Part shown: piece after piece, positions 13,853 to 22,944 of the stretch | Numbering within the stretch: the first letter of the stretch is position 1 | How the letters are laid out: each line of letters opens with the position of its first letter | Assembly (NCBI GenBank): GCA_009927665.1 | Contig: RFMM01000180.1 | Location: forward strand, 1 to 57,784 | Length of the DNA: 57,784 nucleotides | DNA from: Actinomycetota bacterium | Lineage (GTDB): Bacteria; Actinomycetota; Acidimicrobiia; Acidimicrobiales; Ilumatobacteraceae | Direction of reading: 5' to 3' | Notes under the pieces: generated by a model | The model's input: the letters and a program-made list of their open reading frames with translations, nothing else | Databases searched by the model: none | Told to the model about the DNA's origin: nothing | Program-made: the position numbers and the translations under genes

Positions 13853-15066
13853 CCTCCGCTCAAGGTGGTGACGAGTGCGTCATCGGGCACGGTGAGATCG
13901 TCAAGATGATCGAGATAGCCGTGCGGCAGCATCACCTTGATCGGCCCGTTGGTGTGGCCGCGTGCGAGGCGCTCGCCGCCGTCGACGAGTTGGAGGGTGC
14001 GGTCGAGTGTTGCTGCGAGCTGTCGAACCTCGTCAAGCGTCGAAACTTCGGCGAAGCGGCGTCGCACCTCTGGCCCGACCGGGTAGCCCGTGAGATACCA
14101 CCCGCAGTGTTTGCGAAATTCGCGAATGCCTTTGCCTTCGTCGTTGCGTCCGTTGGCCTGATGGTGGTGCATCAACGACTCGGCATGCGTAAGCATCACG
14201 TCGAGCACGTCGCCAAGCAGCGGAGCCGGTTGGGGCTCACGGCCAGAAAACGCATCGATCAAATCACGAAACAACCACGGTTTGCCGAGACAGCCGCGAC
14301 CGATGACCACACCATCGCAACCCGTCTCGCGCACCATGCGCACGGCATCGCCAGCAGTCCAGATGTCGCCGTTGCCCAACACCGGAATATCTGGCACATG
14401 TTGCTTGAGTGCAGCGATGGCCTGCCACCGGGCATGTGGCGCATAATGCTGCTCGGCAGTGCGTGCATGCAGGGCAATGGCCACCGCGCCCTCGTCGCGA
14501 CAGATGGCGCCGGTGTCGAGATAGGTCAGCAGATTGTCGGTCACCCCCATGCGGAACTTGCACGTCACCGGAATGCCATAGCGACGTGCCGCGCGCACCG
14601 TGCTGGCCACGATCTCGCGCAGCAGATTTTTTTTGAGGGGCACCGCAGCGCCGCCGCCCTTGCGAGTCACTTTCGCGGCGGGGCAACCGAAGTTCAGATC
14701 GATGTGGTCGACCAAGTCTTCGCGTCCGAGAATGTCGACGGCAGCTTCCATGATTCGCGGGTCGCTGCCGTACAACTGCAGACTGCGAAACTGCTCATCG
14801 GGAGAAAAAGTGACCATCGATCGCGTGCGCGTGTTGCCGTAGACCAGGGCCGCTGCCATGATCATCTCGTTCACATAAATGAGGCCCGGCCCGAAACTGC
14901 GGCACAAGCTGCGAAACGGTGCGTTGGTCACCCCGGCCATCGGGGCGAGCACGACGGGCGGCCACACTTCGATGCCACGACCCGGTGAGCCGTCGGTGTG
15001 TGTGCCGCGCAAGGCGAGCGGGCGAATCACCTCTGCGGGCGATGCGGCAGCGGCTGACTGCGTCAC
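13849..15066 (-). CDS. dusB: tRNA-dihydrouridine synthase (DusB-type)
   Basis: This flavoenzyme reduces uridine in tRNA D-loops. The 405-residue product contains VVLAPMAGVTNAPFR, the IDLNFGCPAAKVTRKGGGAA active-site region with the catalytic cysteine, and NGDIWTAGDAVRMV and GVVIGRGCLGKPWLF for flavin binding. An eight-A run on the coding strand (14627-14634) falls at PLKKNLL and the frame is intact through it. It overlaps tsaD by four bases upstream and maf by four downstream. Confidence 0.94.
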   Translation of the reverse strand: MTQSAAAASPAEVIRPLALRGTHTDGSPGRGIEVWPPVVLAPMAGVTNAPFRSLCRSFGPGLIYVNEMIMAAALVYGNTRTRSMVTFSPDEQFRSLQLYGSDPRIMEAAVDILGREDLVDHIDLNFGCPAAKVTRKGGGAAVPLKKNLLREIVASTVRAARRYGIPVTCKFRMGVTDNLLTYLDTGAICRDEGAVAIALHARTAEQHYAPHARWQAIAALKQHVPDIPVLGNGDIWTAGDAVRMVRETGCDGVVIGRGCLGKPWLFRDLIDAFSGREPQPAPLLGDVLDVMLTHAESLMHHHQANGRNDEGKGIREFRKHCGWYLTGYPVGPEVRRRFAEVSTLDEVRQLAATLDRTLQLVDGGERLARGHTNGPIKVMLPHGYLDHLDDLTVPDDALVTTLSGG

Positions 15067-16109
15067 CTTTGGCCCGCCGCCAACTTGAGGTTCGGGTTCG
15101 CACCAGTATCCAGCGGCGAGGTTTCTCCACGCGCCAAGCGATACCAGCCAGCACTCGCAATCATCGCCGCATTATCAGTGCACATCTCACGCGACGGCAA
15201 CACGACACGCACCCCATCGTCATCACCCGCACGCTGCATTTCTCGACGCAGCAGCGAGTTGGCCGCCACCCCACCACCGAGAGCAATCGTGCGGGCACCG
15301 CACTGACTTGCCGCTCGACGCGCCTTGTGCACAAGCACGTCGACCACCGCACGCTGAAACGATGCCGCTACATCGTCACTTGCAACCTGCGGGTGGGCTC
15401 GCACATGGTTGATGACCGCCGTTTTCAGACCGCTGAACGACACGTCGAAGCCCTCGTTGCGCATCGCGCGCGGGAAGTCGATGGCCTTCTCGTTGCCACG
15501 TGTCGCCGCCTTGTCGATGGCCGGCCCACCCGGAAACCCAAGCCCGAGAAATCTCGCCACCTTGTCGAAGGCCTCACCTGCTGCATCGTCGATGGTCTGG
15601 CCGACGACGCGATAGTCGTGCGGGTCGTTCATTGCTACGAACATCGTGTGGCCACCCGAGACGAGCACGAACAACATCGGAAACTCTGCGTCGGGAGCAT
15701 CAAGCAACGCCGCGTACAGATGCGCTTCGAGATGGTTGACACCCACGAATGGCACATCAAGGGCGAGTGCCATGGCCTTGGCTGCCGACACACCAACGAG
15801 CAAAGCGCCGACGAGCCCAGGCCCGACCGTGGCGGCAACTGCATCGACTCGCCCAACGTCGATACCAGCGCGCGCGATGGCTTGGGCAGTCACGTGTGGC
15901 AACGCCTCAAGATGCGCACGGCTTGCAATCTCGGGCACGACGCCGCCGAACCGGGCGTGTTCATCGAGCTGACTCGCGACCACCGACGACAACACGTCAC
16001 CGCCACCCATTACCACCGCGACTGCCGTTTCGTCGCAGCTCGTCTCGATGCCGAGCACCACGGTGCTTTCGTCAGCCGTCACCTTGTGACCAGTCAGGTC
16101 TTCAGCCAT
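15063..16109 (-). CDS. tsaD: tRNA N6-threonylcarbamoyladenosine transferase TsaD
   Basis: TsaD transfers the threonylcarbamoyl group to A37 of ANN-decoding tRNAs. With the start at ATG 16109 it has 348 residues, with VLGIETSCDETAVAVV at 18-33, the metal-binding pair H126 and H130 in NHLEAH, and a C-terminal MCTDNAAMIA motif. The frame opens 14 codons further upstream, but the chosen start matches family length and overlaps the rimI stop by eight bases. It forms the t6A machinery with the adjacent tsaB and tsaE. Confidence 0.95.
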   Translation of the reverse strand: MAEDLTGHKVTADESTVVLGIETSCDETAVAVVMGGGDVLSSVVASQLDEHARFGGVVPEIASRAHLEALPHVTAQAIARAGIDVGRVDAVAATVGPGLVGALLVGVSAAKAMALALDVPFVGVNHLEAHLYAALLDAPDAEFPMLFVLVSGGHTMFVAMNDPHDYRVVGQTIDDAAGEAFDKVARFLGLGFPGGPAIDKAATRGNEKAIDFPRAMRNEGFDVSFSGLKTAVINHVRAHPQVASDDVAASFQRAVVDVLVHKARRAASQCGARTIALGGGVAANSLLRREMQRAGDDDGVRVVLPSREMCTDNAAMIASAGWYRLARGETSPLDTGANPNLKLAAGQR

Positions 16110-16650
16110 TTCGTTCTGCCTCGATCTTCTCGAGCCGTGCGCGAAACGCATCTGCCTGAATGTCGGTGCACCACATCACGATGGCGTCGTCACGATTCTC
16201 GTAATACTTCGGTCGCACACCCACCGGCGCGAAGCCGAAACGCTGATACATCGACTGTGCCGAAACATTCGACTGGCGCACTTCAAGCGTGAGTGAGGCC
16301 ATCCCCGCGCGACGCGCCTGCCAGGCGAGATCCAACAGCAGCTCAGTGGCGATGCCGCGGCGGCGCATTGATACATCTACGGCGATGTTGGTGATGTGGG
16401 CGGCGTCGTCCATGTAGATCATTCCGCCGTACCCGACAAGACGACCGGCGAGAAGCGCCACCAAATAGTGCCGCGAACCACGTGACTGCATGGCGAGTTC
16501 GTCTTCAAAGACGCCCCGAGTCCAAGGTGCGGGATACGACACCGACTCGATTGCCATCACCTCGTCAAGATGCGATTTGCGCATCGGTTCGATGTGCAAC
16601 GCATCGGGATCGTTCATCGTGCGTCGCAGAAGGCGGCTCAAGATGCTCAT
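16102..16650 (-). CDS. rimI: GNAT N-acetyltransferase, RimI-like
   Basis: A 182-residue GNAT-fold acetyltransferase. The acetyl-CoA-binding motif reads ITNIAVDVSMRRRGIATELL, followed by LEVRQSNVSAQSMYQRFGF, typical of RimI, which acetylates the N-terminus of ribosomal protein S18. The location between tsaB and tsaD is the usual place for rimI in Actinobacteria. The ATG at 16650 overlaps the tsaB stop (ATGA). An ATG/GTG start seven codons earlier is possible but less natural. Confidence 0.88.
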   Translation of the reverse strand: MSILSRLLRRTMNDPDALHIEPMRKSHLDEVMAIESVSYPAPWTRGVFEDELAMQSRGSRHYLVALLAGRLVGYGGMIYMDDAAHITNIAVDVSMRRRGIATELLLDLAWQARRAGMASLTLEVRQSNVSAQSMYQRFGFAPVGVRPKYYENRDDAIVMWCTDIQADAFRARLEKIEAERNG

Positions 16651-19114: not shown

Positions 19115-19480
19115 TCAGTTGGCGGCCACAACGGCAATCGCGGTCTGATCGGTGTGGGTGATCGACACATGCCATTGCTGCACACCGCGCGTTGCCGCCA
19201 ACTGAGCGGCACGGCCGCTCACCAGCAAGTGGGGTTGGCCACTCGCATCGCTGCTCACCGACACGTCGTGAAAGTCGAACGCCCCGAGCCCAACACCGAG
19301 TGCCTTCATCGTGGCTTCACGCACCGCGAATCGTGCAGCCAACATCTGGGTGGCGTCAGCACGTCGCTCAGCCGCCTCACACTCAGCAGAGGTAAAGAGT
19401 CGCGTCACCAGCCTTGGGCTGCGAGCAAGCACGTCGCGAAAGCGTGGCACATCGACCGCGTCGATACCGAGACCGAGCAT
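19115..19480 (-). CDS. acpS: Holo-[acyl-carrier-protein] synthase
   Basis: AcpS attaches phosphopantetheine to acyl carrier protein. The 121-residue protein begins MLGLGIDAVDVPRFRDVL with the metal-binding aspartate, and has the FAVREATMKALG motif with the catalytic glutamate and lysine, and a WHVSITHTDQTAIAVV C-terminus. The ATG at 19480 gives the normal family N-terminus; GTG codons at 19483 and 19498 are alternatives. It follows the giant glmS-like gene by a few bases. Confidence 0.93.
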   Translation of the reverse strand: MLGLGIDAVDVPRFRDVLARSPRLVTRLFTSAECEAAERRADATQMLAARFAVREATMKALGVGLGAFDFHDVSVSSDASGQPHLLVSGRAAQLAATRGVQQWHVSITHTDQTAIAVVAAN

Positions 19481-19485
19481 CACGT

Positions 19486-22400
19486 TTACGCCCGCCACAT
19501 ATCGGCGGTTGAGGTGATCGGCAAGATCAGCGCATCAGCAACCGACACCTCGGCCAGGCGATCTTCACGGAACGCCGCCTCGGTCTCGGTCACCGCATCG
19601 ACCAAACGCTCGTATCGGTTGTCGTAGCCCTGCAACACCTGCTTCATCACGCCAGCAGACAGACGATCGTGGAAGAGCACGTGCAACAACGTGATACCCG
19701 TCGTCTCTGCACCCTTGGTCTCGGGCACCAGAATCACCGTGCGATTGTCGCGACGCCCACGGGCGACCAACACTTCTTGCGACATCGCAATTCGTCGCTT
19801 GGTGCCACGCAAGATGTTTGATGCATCAACTCGCGACTGCAAATCGCGCGAGATGCCGCCCCGATCGACGATTGCGACAGTCGCATCATTTGTCGCTGGG
19901 TCGCCTTCGATGCGATAGCGCGTGAAACCGACGACTTGGCTGACTGCGGCATCAAGGTCAGCGAGCACCTTCAATACGCCGTACGTCAGACGCTCGCGTG
20001 CCGCACCTGCGTTGAGCACCGCTTTCACCAGTGCGCGGTCGAGCAGACCTTCTTCGCTGCGCGAGATACCGACGGTGATCGTCTTGGCCTGATGCTTGAT
20101 GGCGTCAATCGGCCGAGTGAGTTCATCGACTGCACGAGTGAGCGCCGCAGTCAGGTCGTCAAGCAATGCCTCGGGTGTCGCAATCTTGCCGAAATCGCGT
20201 TGAAAACTCTGCAACGGGTTCGCCGACATCACCGTGCGCAGCATGCCAACCACTCGCACCGCAGTCGACGCCTCGAGATTGCCGTCATAGGTGCCGGTAG
20301 CAAGTGAGTCGAAGAAGCGAGTCGCAGGCACACCAATCTCGGCGTGCACCTTGTCGAGTAGCACCGCGCCTTGACCGCCGCGGGCGACCGCACGCTCAAC
20401 GACTTCGCGGGTTTGGCGTAGTGGTCGTGCCAATGCATCAATCGCCAATGCCGCTTCGTAACCAAACAGGTGCCCGACCATCACGCTCAACACGAAGGCA
20501 AGCCGTGGGTCAACAGCGGGCACTTCAATGACTGCGGCTGCGGCACCGAAACGCTCTTCGCCAGCGGTCGCCACGACGATTGGCAGGGCCTTGTGGGCGC
20601 GGTAGATCTCGATTTCCTTCGCAACGTCGCTTGCCGTGCCACCCGACAGCCCGGCCGCGCATACGAAGATCAGCGGTTCGCACGACAAGTCGATGTGTTT
20701 CTTGTCTTCGGTGATGTCGCACGCAATTGACTTGTAACACAGTTCGCTCAGCTTGATGCGCACTTCTTCTGCGGCAACTGCGTTGGTGCCGTTACCGACA
20801 ACTGTCCAATACCGACGCGACGTCGCAAACGTGCGAGCTGCGTCGGCAACCTTGCTGCGCGACGCAAGCACCGTATTCATCGCATCGGGCAAGGCACGTA
20901 GCCCAGCCAAGAGTTGAGCGCGGTCATCGGCTTGACCGGTGCCGAGTGCCTGTGCAACCGCGCAGGCAAGCAACGCACCAGCGGCGACCTGCGCGTAGAA
21001 CGCCTTGGTGCTGGCGACGCTCATCTCGACGTCGCGGCCGTCAGAGGTATAGATGACGCCATCGGCTTTGGCCGTCAACTCGCTTCCCCGTCGGTTGACG
21101 ATTGCCAAGACGCGTGCGCCACGTGACCGAGCCAGGTCGACCGTGCGGTTCGTGTCGGTGGTGGTGCCACTCTGACTGATGGCGACAATCAAGGTGTCGC
21201 TCATGTCGAGCGACAGCCCGAAGCCCGACAACTCGGTGGCAGGCAATGCGTCGATGCGCAGACTGTCACCGGTGAGCGCACGCAACAGATTGGCCAACGA
21301 ACGACCAGCGATTGCGGCCGTGCCCTGGCCGATCACTCGAATGCGCCGCAGAGCACCAGATGAGAGTTCGTCGACAATGCGCTGCGGCAGCTGCGAGTCA
21401 TCTAACGACACCGTGAGCAGACCACCTGATTCGGTCACACGTCCGCGCAATGTCTTGGCGAATGATCGCGGCGCCTCAGTGATCTCTTTGGCGAGAAAGT
21501 GACTGTGGGCCCCGCGGTCGATGTCGCGCGTCGTGACTTCGGCGGTCAGCATGTTGTGGTTGCCCATCGAAAGAGCCGTGCCGTCATAGGCGACGAGTTG
21601 AATTCCTTCCGCTTCACCGGCGTGCGCAGCATCGAGCACCACCACCTGCCCGCGGCTCGACGGGTTGTCGGCGTGCGCGAGCGACTCGCCATCCATGCGC
21701 AGGTAGTGCTGCGTCTCTTCGACCAAGCCGTAGGGCTCACTCGCCACGACGAAACGATTCGGCGCCAAACCGACGCACAGACCCTGACCGCTGCCCTTCA
21801 GCGCCAAGAGCAACGACTCTGGAATCTCAGCCGACGCCGCCGCAATCGCAACCGACCCTTCGAATGATGCGACCGTCTCGCGAAATGCGTCAGCAAGCGC
21901 ATCGGCCGACACCGGCGAGCCGCCATCTTTCGTCAAAGAAGCAAGGCGGCGCGAAACAAGTGCAGGTATCACCTTGGCATCGGTGGTGATTGGTTGAGCG
22001 AGCCGCAACTCATGGCGAGCACGCAAGTCGGCATGATTGTCGACATCACCATTCAAAGCCGCAATGAGGTAGGCCGCATTTGCATTGCCTTCGAGCTCTT
22101 CGCTGTTGACCGGGTGGGCATTCGGCTCAGAGATGATGCCGACGCTCGCCCAGCGCGTGTGACCGAGCACTGCGACGCGCGCTTCGGGTTGGCTCACCAA
22201 GAGTCGCAGCAGGTCATCTTGCAGAACGGCATGGCGCATAGCTCGGGTGTTGTCTCCGAGCTCACCGATTTCTGCTGCTGCCTTGTAGACAAATGACCAC
22301 GCTGCACGGGTGATGCGTACCGAGCCAGACGTAAAGAGGCTGTCGTCATGACGTGTGCCAAGCATCGCGCGCACGCGTGCGTCATCTGCCGACACACCAT

Positions 22401-22944
22401 GACCCCACACCATGACGTGCACGCCTGCCGAATCGCGGCCGCGCACTTCCAGTCGATCGATGCCCGAGAAGACCTGCTGAATCGAGAGATATGCGGCGAT
22501 CGCCGAGCGGCTCGCACCGGCGCCGGCCAGGCTGTCGACCGCGGCCGCAGTGCGCAGGCGATCCATGCGAATCGACCACACGGCATCACGCAACACAGTG
22601 AGCAGACCAAGTCGGTGCTCAAGCGCCGCTGCACCAAGCGTGCCAGATGTTTCGAGTGCGTTCTCTGCAGCCGTGATGCGACCCTGCATCTGATCGAGCG
22701 AGGTCCCGAGAGCGGCGACAAACTCGCGGTTGCCTGCCATGAGCCACATGCCTGCGTCGCCGCGCAGTGACGAATCGATGGCAGACATCTGCTGGCCCAT
22801 CACTTCGAGCGCAGCGTCACTTGGCAGAGCGGCCCCCTCAAGCGGCCATTGGTTGACGACGGCAGCGAGTTGGCCGAGCACGTCAGCGGCAACCGGCACG
22901 CTGCGGGTTTCAGGGCGTGACAGCACTGCGATAATGCCGCACAT
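19486..22944 (-). CDS. glmS: Giant GlmS-like glutamine-fructose-6-phosphate aminotransferase (1152 residues)
   Basis: It occupies the glmS position between glmM and acpS and probably makes glucosamine 6-phosphate. Normal GlmS has about 610 residues; this has 1152. Cys2 (MCGIIAVLSR) is the N-terminal nucleophile. A helical insert of about 130 residues (20-160) separates it from the rest of the glutaminase domain: RGRDSAG (168-174), GHTRWA (261-266), NAHP (275-278), NGD (298-300) and the TTDAKV aspartate (322). The first sugar-isomerase domain has QSGTTTDT (591-598) and SVASTKAF (642-649). The second aligns K731, E734 and H750 with E. coli K485, E488 and H504 at identical spacing. AKTITVG (953-959) matches the usual C-terminal AKSVTVE. 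Beyond that lie about 190 extra residues of no recognised family. One intact frame; the glutaminase motifs are diverged but complete. Confidence 0.85.
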   Translation of the reverse strand: MCGIIAVLSRPETRSVPVAADVLGQLAAVVNQWPLEGAALPSDAALEVMGQQMSAIDSSLRGDAGMWLMAGNREFVAALGTSLDQMQGRITAAENALETSGTLGAAALEHRLGLLTVLRDAVWSIRMDRLRTAAAVDSLAGAGASRSAIAAYLSIQQVFSGIDRLEVRGRDSAGVHVMVWGHGVSADDARVRAMLGTRHDDSLFTSGSVRITRAAWSFVYKAAAEIGELGDNTRAMRHAVLQDDLLRLLVSQPEARVAVLGHTRWASVGIISEPNAHPVNSEELEGNANAAYLIAALNGDVDNHADLRARHELRLAQPITTDAKVIPALVSRRLASLTKDGGSPVSADALADAFRETVASFEGSVAIAAASAEIPESLLLALKGSGQGLCVGLAPNRFVVASEPYGLVEETQHYLRMDGESLAHADNPSSRGQVVVLDAAHAGEAEGIQLVAYDGTALSMGNHNMLTAEVTTRDIDRGAHSHFLAKEITEAPRSFAKTLRGRVTESGGLLTVSLDDSQLPQRIVDELSSGALRRIRVIGQGTAAIAGRSLANLLRALTGDSLRIDALPATELSGFGLSLDMSDTLIVAISQSGTTTDTNRTVDLARSRGARVLAIVNRRGSELTAKADGVIYTSDGRDVEMSVASTKAFYAQVAAGALLACAVAQALGTGQADDRAQLLAGLRALPDAMNTVLASRSKVADAARTFATSRRYWTVVGNGTNAVAAEEVRIKLSELCYKSIACDITEDKKHIDLSCEPLIFVCAAGLSGGTASDVAKEIEIYRAHKALPIVVATAGEERFGAAAAVIEVPAVDPRLAFVLSVMVGHLFGYEAALAIDALARPLRQTREVVERAVARGGQGAVLLDKVHAEIGVPATRFFDSLATGTYDGNLEASTAVRVVGMLRTVMSANPLQSFQRDFGKIATPEALLDDLTAALTRAVDELTRPIDAIKHQAKTITVGISRSEEGLLDRALVKAVLNAGAARERLTYGVLKVLADLDAAVSQVVGFTRYRIEGDPATNDATVAIVDRGGISRDLQSRVDASNILRGTKRRIAMSQEVLVARGRRDNRTVILVPETKGAETTGITLLHVLFHDRLSAGVMKQVLQGYDNRYERLVDAVTETEAAFREDRLAEVSVADALILPITSTADMWRA

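Follow-up and report, generated by a model that had tools for sequence, protein, structure and literature searches.

The glmS locus and the anatomy of its product

The window, which is the whole stretch of 57,784 nucleotides that was analysed, carries a glmS gene within the gene order rplM-rpsI-glmM-glmS-acpS-alr. GlmS makes glucosamine-6-phosphate, the first amino sugar on the way to the cell wall. It is near-universal and usually essential, has about 600 residues, and has a C-terminal tail (C-tail) lid that is a textbook part of ammonia channelling. The product of the window gene, here called GlmS-L, starts with MCGI and has 1152 residues. The sequence-only reading of a 1152-residue GlmS at 19486-22944 was confirmed by the open reading frame, which has the same coordinates, and by GlmS homology over the core; its placing of the gene in the normal glmS slot beside glmM was borne out by the gene order. 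The genes at the locus are as follows.

19486..22944, minus strand: glmS, encoding the long form GlmS-L of 1152 aa; the coordinates take in the stop codon
22950..24275, minus strand: glmM, 5 bases upstream of glmS, next pathway step
19115..19498, minus strand: acpS, directly downstream of glmS

The listed GTG start of acpS overlaps glmS, and an in-frame ATG at 19480 is a better fit. No known RNA element was found at Rfam thresholds in the window between 19000 and 25500. Elsewhere in the window, a 457-codon open frame (14919..16292, plus strand) lies antisense to tsaD and its neighbours and is most likely a codon-usage by-product.

The anatomy of GlmS-L was derived by aligning it with E. coli GlmS and with normal GlmS from its own class, Acidimicrobiia.

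22909..22944, minus strand: residues 1-12, opening strand of the glutaminase domain, which carries the catalytic Cys, from the alignment with E. coli GlmS
22489..22908, minus strand: I1, residues 13-152, helical, fast-evolving insert in the glutaminase domain
22207..22392, minus strand: I2, residues 185-246, about 45 net extra residues, from the alignment
21625..22206, minus strand: residues 247-440, remaining glutaminase core with HTRWA (Q-loop), NGD and D322
20953..21504, minus strand: SIS domain 1, residues 481-664, from Pfam (SIS, E 6e-18 at 533-660) and structure
20440..20952, minus strand: SIS domain 2, residues 665-835, with K731, E734 and H750
20113..20439, minus strand: I3, residues 836-944 (about 109), helical insert that follows the last SIS2 helix and precedes the C-tail
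20059..20112, minus strand: internalised C-tail lid DAIKHQAKTITVGISR, residues 945-962, with K954, low model confidence
19489..20058, minus strand: C-domain, residues 963-1152, predicted PAS/GAF-like alpha/beta domain

The catalytic cysteine is Cys2 of the gene product and Cys1 of the mature enzyme, and I2 carries the nearly invariant motif EIGELGDN. Every normal GlmS in the alignment ends with the C-tail. In GlmS-L the C-tail is internal: I3 precedes it and the C-domain follows it. The alignment gave four additions where two had been read from the sequence, I2 and I3 having been missed. An N-terminal insert does exist, as I1, but its size is about 140 residues rather than the 130 first estimated, and the stretch after AKTITVG, put at about 190 extra residues, was measured at about 193.

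Mean identity to the window protein among 61 relatives was 0.65 for the C-domain, 0.57 for I3 and 0.91 for the C-tail; for the main catalytic parts it was 0.66-0.72 and for I1 merely 0.36. Compared with two close relatives, the dN of the C-domain (about 0.09, with dS > 1.2) was below that of the catalytic domains, and the dN of I1 was 0.39-0.44. The C-domain contains 29 near-invariant residues. The identity and dN values indicate roughly equal constraint on the C-domain and the catalytic core, and far weaker constraint on I1.

Family membership, distribution and divergence

The two best NCBIfam models for GlmS-L were both GlmS models, NF001484 (E 5e-75; 253 bits against a curated cut-off of 381) and TIGR01135 (E 1.1e-67; 229 bits against a cut-off of 418). 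None of the long forms of the class reached the TIGR01135 cut-off of 418 bits. The length and architecture of that family (about 600 residues, with the chain ending at the C-tail) also differ from those of GlmS-L, which has 1152 aa with the C-tail at 945-962. Pfam found one SIS domain and GATase_6 in GlmS-L and nothing else. Judged by sequence and fold, GlmS-L works like GlmS, yet it stands outside the curated glmS family by score and architecture.

All catalytic residues tested, from Cys1 to Lys603 (E. coli numbering), were in place and invariant in 36 long forms. These were the N-terminal catalytic Cys and the glutamine-binding R26, R73, N98, G99 and D123 of the glutaminase, and K485, E488, H504, K603 and the SQS phosphate loop of the isomerase. 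The register first proposed, K731/E734/H750 with E. coli K485/E488/H504, held in the alignment. K954 is equivalent to E. coli Lys603, and Trp265 to E. coli Trp74. Changes present throughout the subfamily were T76S and H77V/I/M in the Q-loop and N600H and L601Q in the C-tail, all of which fall in the two mobile ammonia-channel loops. GlmS-L is very probably catalytically active as GlmS.

The class sample comprised 148 Acidimicrobiia genomes, in which normal glmS was scored by the TIGR01135 cut-off. The long form was present in 57 and a normal glmS over the cut-off in 83, with no overlap, and every sampled taxonomic family of the class was uniform for one form. Complete long forms span 1111-1182 aa, and no architecture intermediate between normal and long GlmS was found in the sampled class genomes. 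Named carriers of the long form include Ilumatobacteraceae, Candidatus Microthrix and Aquihabitans sp. G128. Four single-contig genomes (G002, G027, G110 and G003) had the long form only, so that gaps in the assembly do not explain why a normal copy is missing. The gene had been taken for a single oddity; it is instead the standard GlmS of a large actinobacterial clade. Neither form was over the cut-off in 8 of the 148 genomes, 7 of which came from one small-genome family (f14). These f14 genomes are small and incomplete. G054 also had neither form over the cut-off, though it is listed as 95% complete.

A search of the window genome for a second, normal glmS, as had been suggested, found none, leaving GlmS-L as the sole copy. 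The other candidate in this genome, a 338-aa frame on contig C34, was rejected, having a 21-bit SIS match. In a phylum-wide sample of 396 genomes, the tail was found in 9 outside the class, 8 of them without a normal glmS over the cut-off and 1 with both. The latter, G187, was the sole genome with a normal glmS over the cut-off and the long form (C155:14039-15844 and C313:20897-24400, approximate positions); since its contamination is 5%, the double glmS may stem from mixed binning. Chance and assembly error were both rejected as the source of GlmS-L: intact copies from many genomes all show the full-length architecture, and purifying selection on the added C-terminal parts is strong. The C-domain was not found in plasmids, and 26 pattern matches in viral contigs yielded no confirmed case. 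Five public contigs (L047, L057, L048, L072 and L038) have record titles that name Bifidobacterium breve, Acidobacteria or Ferrithrix thermotolerans. Their long glmS genes are Ilumatobacteraceae-like, with 59-68% identity, so these titles look wrong.

Identities computed over a 593-column core were 29% between the long form and normal GlmS of the same class, about 44% between the normal forms of the class and the E. coli, Azospirillum, Cetobacterium and Pusillibacter sequences, and about 40% between E. coli and haloarchaeal GlmS. The long forms make up one clade (support 100/100) with a stem of several changes per column. In a mixture-model tree, all normal GlmS, archaeal included, fell on one side of this very long branch, which attached at a weakly supported inner branch; in a simpler FastTree run, the long clade attached beside one normal group of the class. 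The attachment point thus differs between the two trees. In a tree of three neighbour genes, the carriers of the two forms separated, apart from one long-form genome that belongs to another class; this pattern is consistent with the type having changed once within the class. The normal and long forms occupy the identical operon slot, indicating that one form replaced the other in place or that both diverged in place. The long form may have arisen either through replacement by a distant GlmS or through rapid divergence in place.

The low core identity to normal GlmS, the scores under the GlmS cut-offs and the changes throughout the subfamily at Q-loop His77 and C-tail Asn600 and Leu601 could also be expected of a divergent relative with another reaction, e.g., one yielding another amino-sugar phosphate or using free ammonia. 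This is very unlikely, however, given that all key glutaminase and isomerase residues are invariant, that the gene lies in the glmS slot beside glmM and that it is the sole glmS candidate in the class genomes carrying it, single-contig ones included.

Predicted structure and fold of the C-domain

The full-length AlphaFold2 model of GlmS-L had a pLDDT of 87.0 and a pTM of 0.77, with stretches of pLDDT < 50 in the C-tail (945-965), in part of the Q-loop (267-269) and at 571-575. An Ntn glutaminase fold followed by two SIS domains was present in the model, according to the superpositions and to Pfam (GATase_6 and SIS), and I1 and I3 were helical. The best whole-chain match was human GFAT-1 (6r4i; Z 43.2, 606 residues, rmsd 4.2). 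The match to E. coli GlmS (1jxa) had Z 42.7 over 592 residues, and that of the glutaminase part to 1xff had Z 31.1 over 236 residues with an rmsd of 1.6.

GlmS-L shares with bacterial GlmS (E. coli, TIGR01135; 1jxa, 2j6h) the glutaminase and two SIS domains, the same catalytic residues and the position beside glmM. Eukaryotic GFAT (human GFAT-1; 6r4i, 6r4e) is likewise a GlmS whose glutaminase domain has gained a regulatory loop (PMC7948480). Unlike GlmS-L, GFAT lacks a C-domain, its chain stops at the C-tail and its additions are far smaller.

Residues 964-1152 modelled alone had a pLDDT of 94.9 and a pTM of 0.90. Foldseek gave no match to this model at E <= 0.001; its best row was 7jsr, the large glutamate dehydrogenase of M. 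smegmatis (E 1.3e-3, probability 1.00). With VIA, residues 174-358 of 7jsr matched with Z 9.3 over 156 of 189 residues, a match that takes in flanking helices. The next matches were GAF, PAS and Cache domains with Z 5.7-7.1 over 75-99 residues. All of these Z scores, that of 7jsr included, are middling and were obtained with a predicted model. The C-domain looks PAS/GAF-like in its predicted fold. The earlier statement that the tail resembles no known family holds by sequence but probably not by fold: the HMM check against Pfam that had been proposed matched no family to the tail, and no consistent match, PAS or GAF included, was found in 62 members.

The best fold match of the C-domain lies in the PAS region of the mycobacterial mL-GDH180 (7jsr, residues 174-358; resolution 6.27 A). 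A PAS-region query from a related enzyme aligned with about residues 213-325 of this protein. As in GlmS-L, a PAS-like part is joined to a nitrogen-metabolism enzyme of an actinobacterium. The two differ in that identity is 14%, the catalytic partner is another one and the position in the chain is different. Comparison of the C-domain with PDB sequences gave chance-level matches only, and profile-profile comparison with the N-terminal regions of 19-20 large-glutamate-dehydrogenase relatives gave no sequence support. Against a PAS-module profile the C-domain scored 17.6, and the best decoy window scored 19.5. Common descent of the C-domain and the PAS region is not supported by the profiles; a similar fold is claimed and common descent is not. 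For the large glutamate dehydrogenase, ACT-like and PAS modules were proposed by the authors as possible metabolite sensors (PMC8175468).

Proposed control of the lid

The hydrophobic ammonia channel of E. coli GlmS takes shape once both substrates are bound and is made up of the C-tail and Trp74 of the Q-loop (summarised in PMC7948480). We infer that catalysis by GlmS-L follows the usual GlmS route: the N-terminal Cys would free ammonia from glutamine, the ammonia would travel along an internal channel whose gate is Trp265 (E. coli Trp74), and fructose-6-phosphate would be converted to glucosamine-6-phosphate by the SIS domains together with Lys954 (E. coli Lys603). The lid, a free chain end in the normal enzymes aligned, is tethered in GlmS-L between the helical I3 and the putatively PAS/GAF-like C-domain. 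The predicted PAS/GAF-like fold of the C-domain and the position of the lid between two added modules make allosteric or channel control plausible. The C-domain would sense a metabolite or partner, the signal would alter the mobility of the lid, and this would set channel sealing or coupling and the flux into amino sugars. A regulatory role of the C-domain is somewhat favoured; that it controls the lid in particular is possible but less assured.

The main rival to sensing is a purely structural or oligomerisation role, in which the inserts and the C-domain would serve to assemble or maintain an unusual oligomer, or to make the long subunit more stable. PAS/GAF-like folds often act as dimer interfaces and also as structural parts, I1 and I3 are helical, and I1 is poorly conserved (mean identity 0.36), all of which would suit such a role. 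On the other hand, the C-domain, with its 29 near-invariant residues and a dN lower than that of the catalytic domains, is attached directly to the lid, although both features are compatible with a structural role too. The structural explanation has a substantial but lesser chance of being correct.

The reading preferred here is that GlmS-L is the only glucosamine-6-phosphate synthase of the organism and belongs to a distinct long subfamily with a C-domain sensor acting on the lid; the probability of this whole reading is put at about 0.55. No description of such a long GlmS was found in the literature searched. We tentatively suggest that GlmS-L may represent an undescribed GlmS class in which a built-in PAS-like sensor operates a lid fixed between two added modules.

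GlmR (YvcK) is a protein activator of GlmS known from Bacillus. The C-domain might be thought to replace it, since no GlmR over the cut-off was seen in the window genome or in any other sampled genome of its family. However, GlmR was over the cut-off in 33/57 long-form and 46/83 normal-form genomes, showing no association, and these counts make such a replacement most improbable. GlmR/YvcK (TIGR01826) was over the cut-off in 0/12 sampled genomes of the window's family (G000 and 11 others), and many related families keep GlmR.

If GlmS-L does represent such a sensor-operated class, the first committed step of amino-sugar synthesis would be under direct allosteric control in these bacteria, by a route that differs from eukaryotic UDP-GlcNAc feedback, the glmS ribozyme, GlmZ/RapZ and GlmR. 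In a large part of one class and in a few other lineages of the phylum, the glmS operon slot holds a form almost twice the usual length, which offers a natural experiment on the control of ammonia channelling and amino-sugar flux. A direct hunt for the ligand of the predicted sensor domain is feasible, and Aquihabitans sp. G128, whose genome is complete, is one organism suited to it. For automatic annotation, the curated cut-offs miss the sole glmS in long-form genomes.
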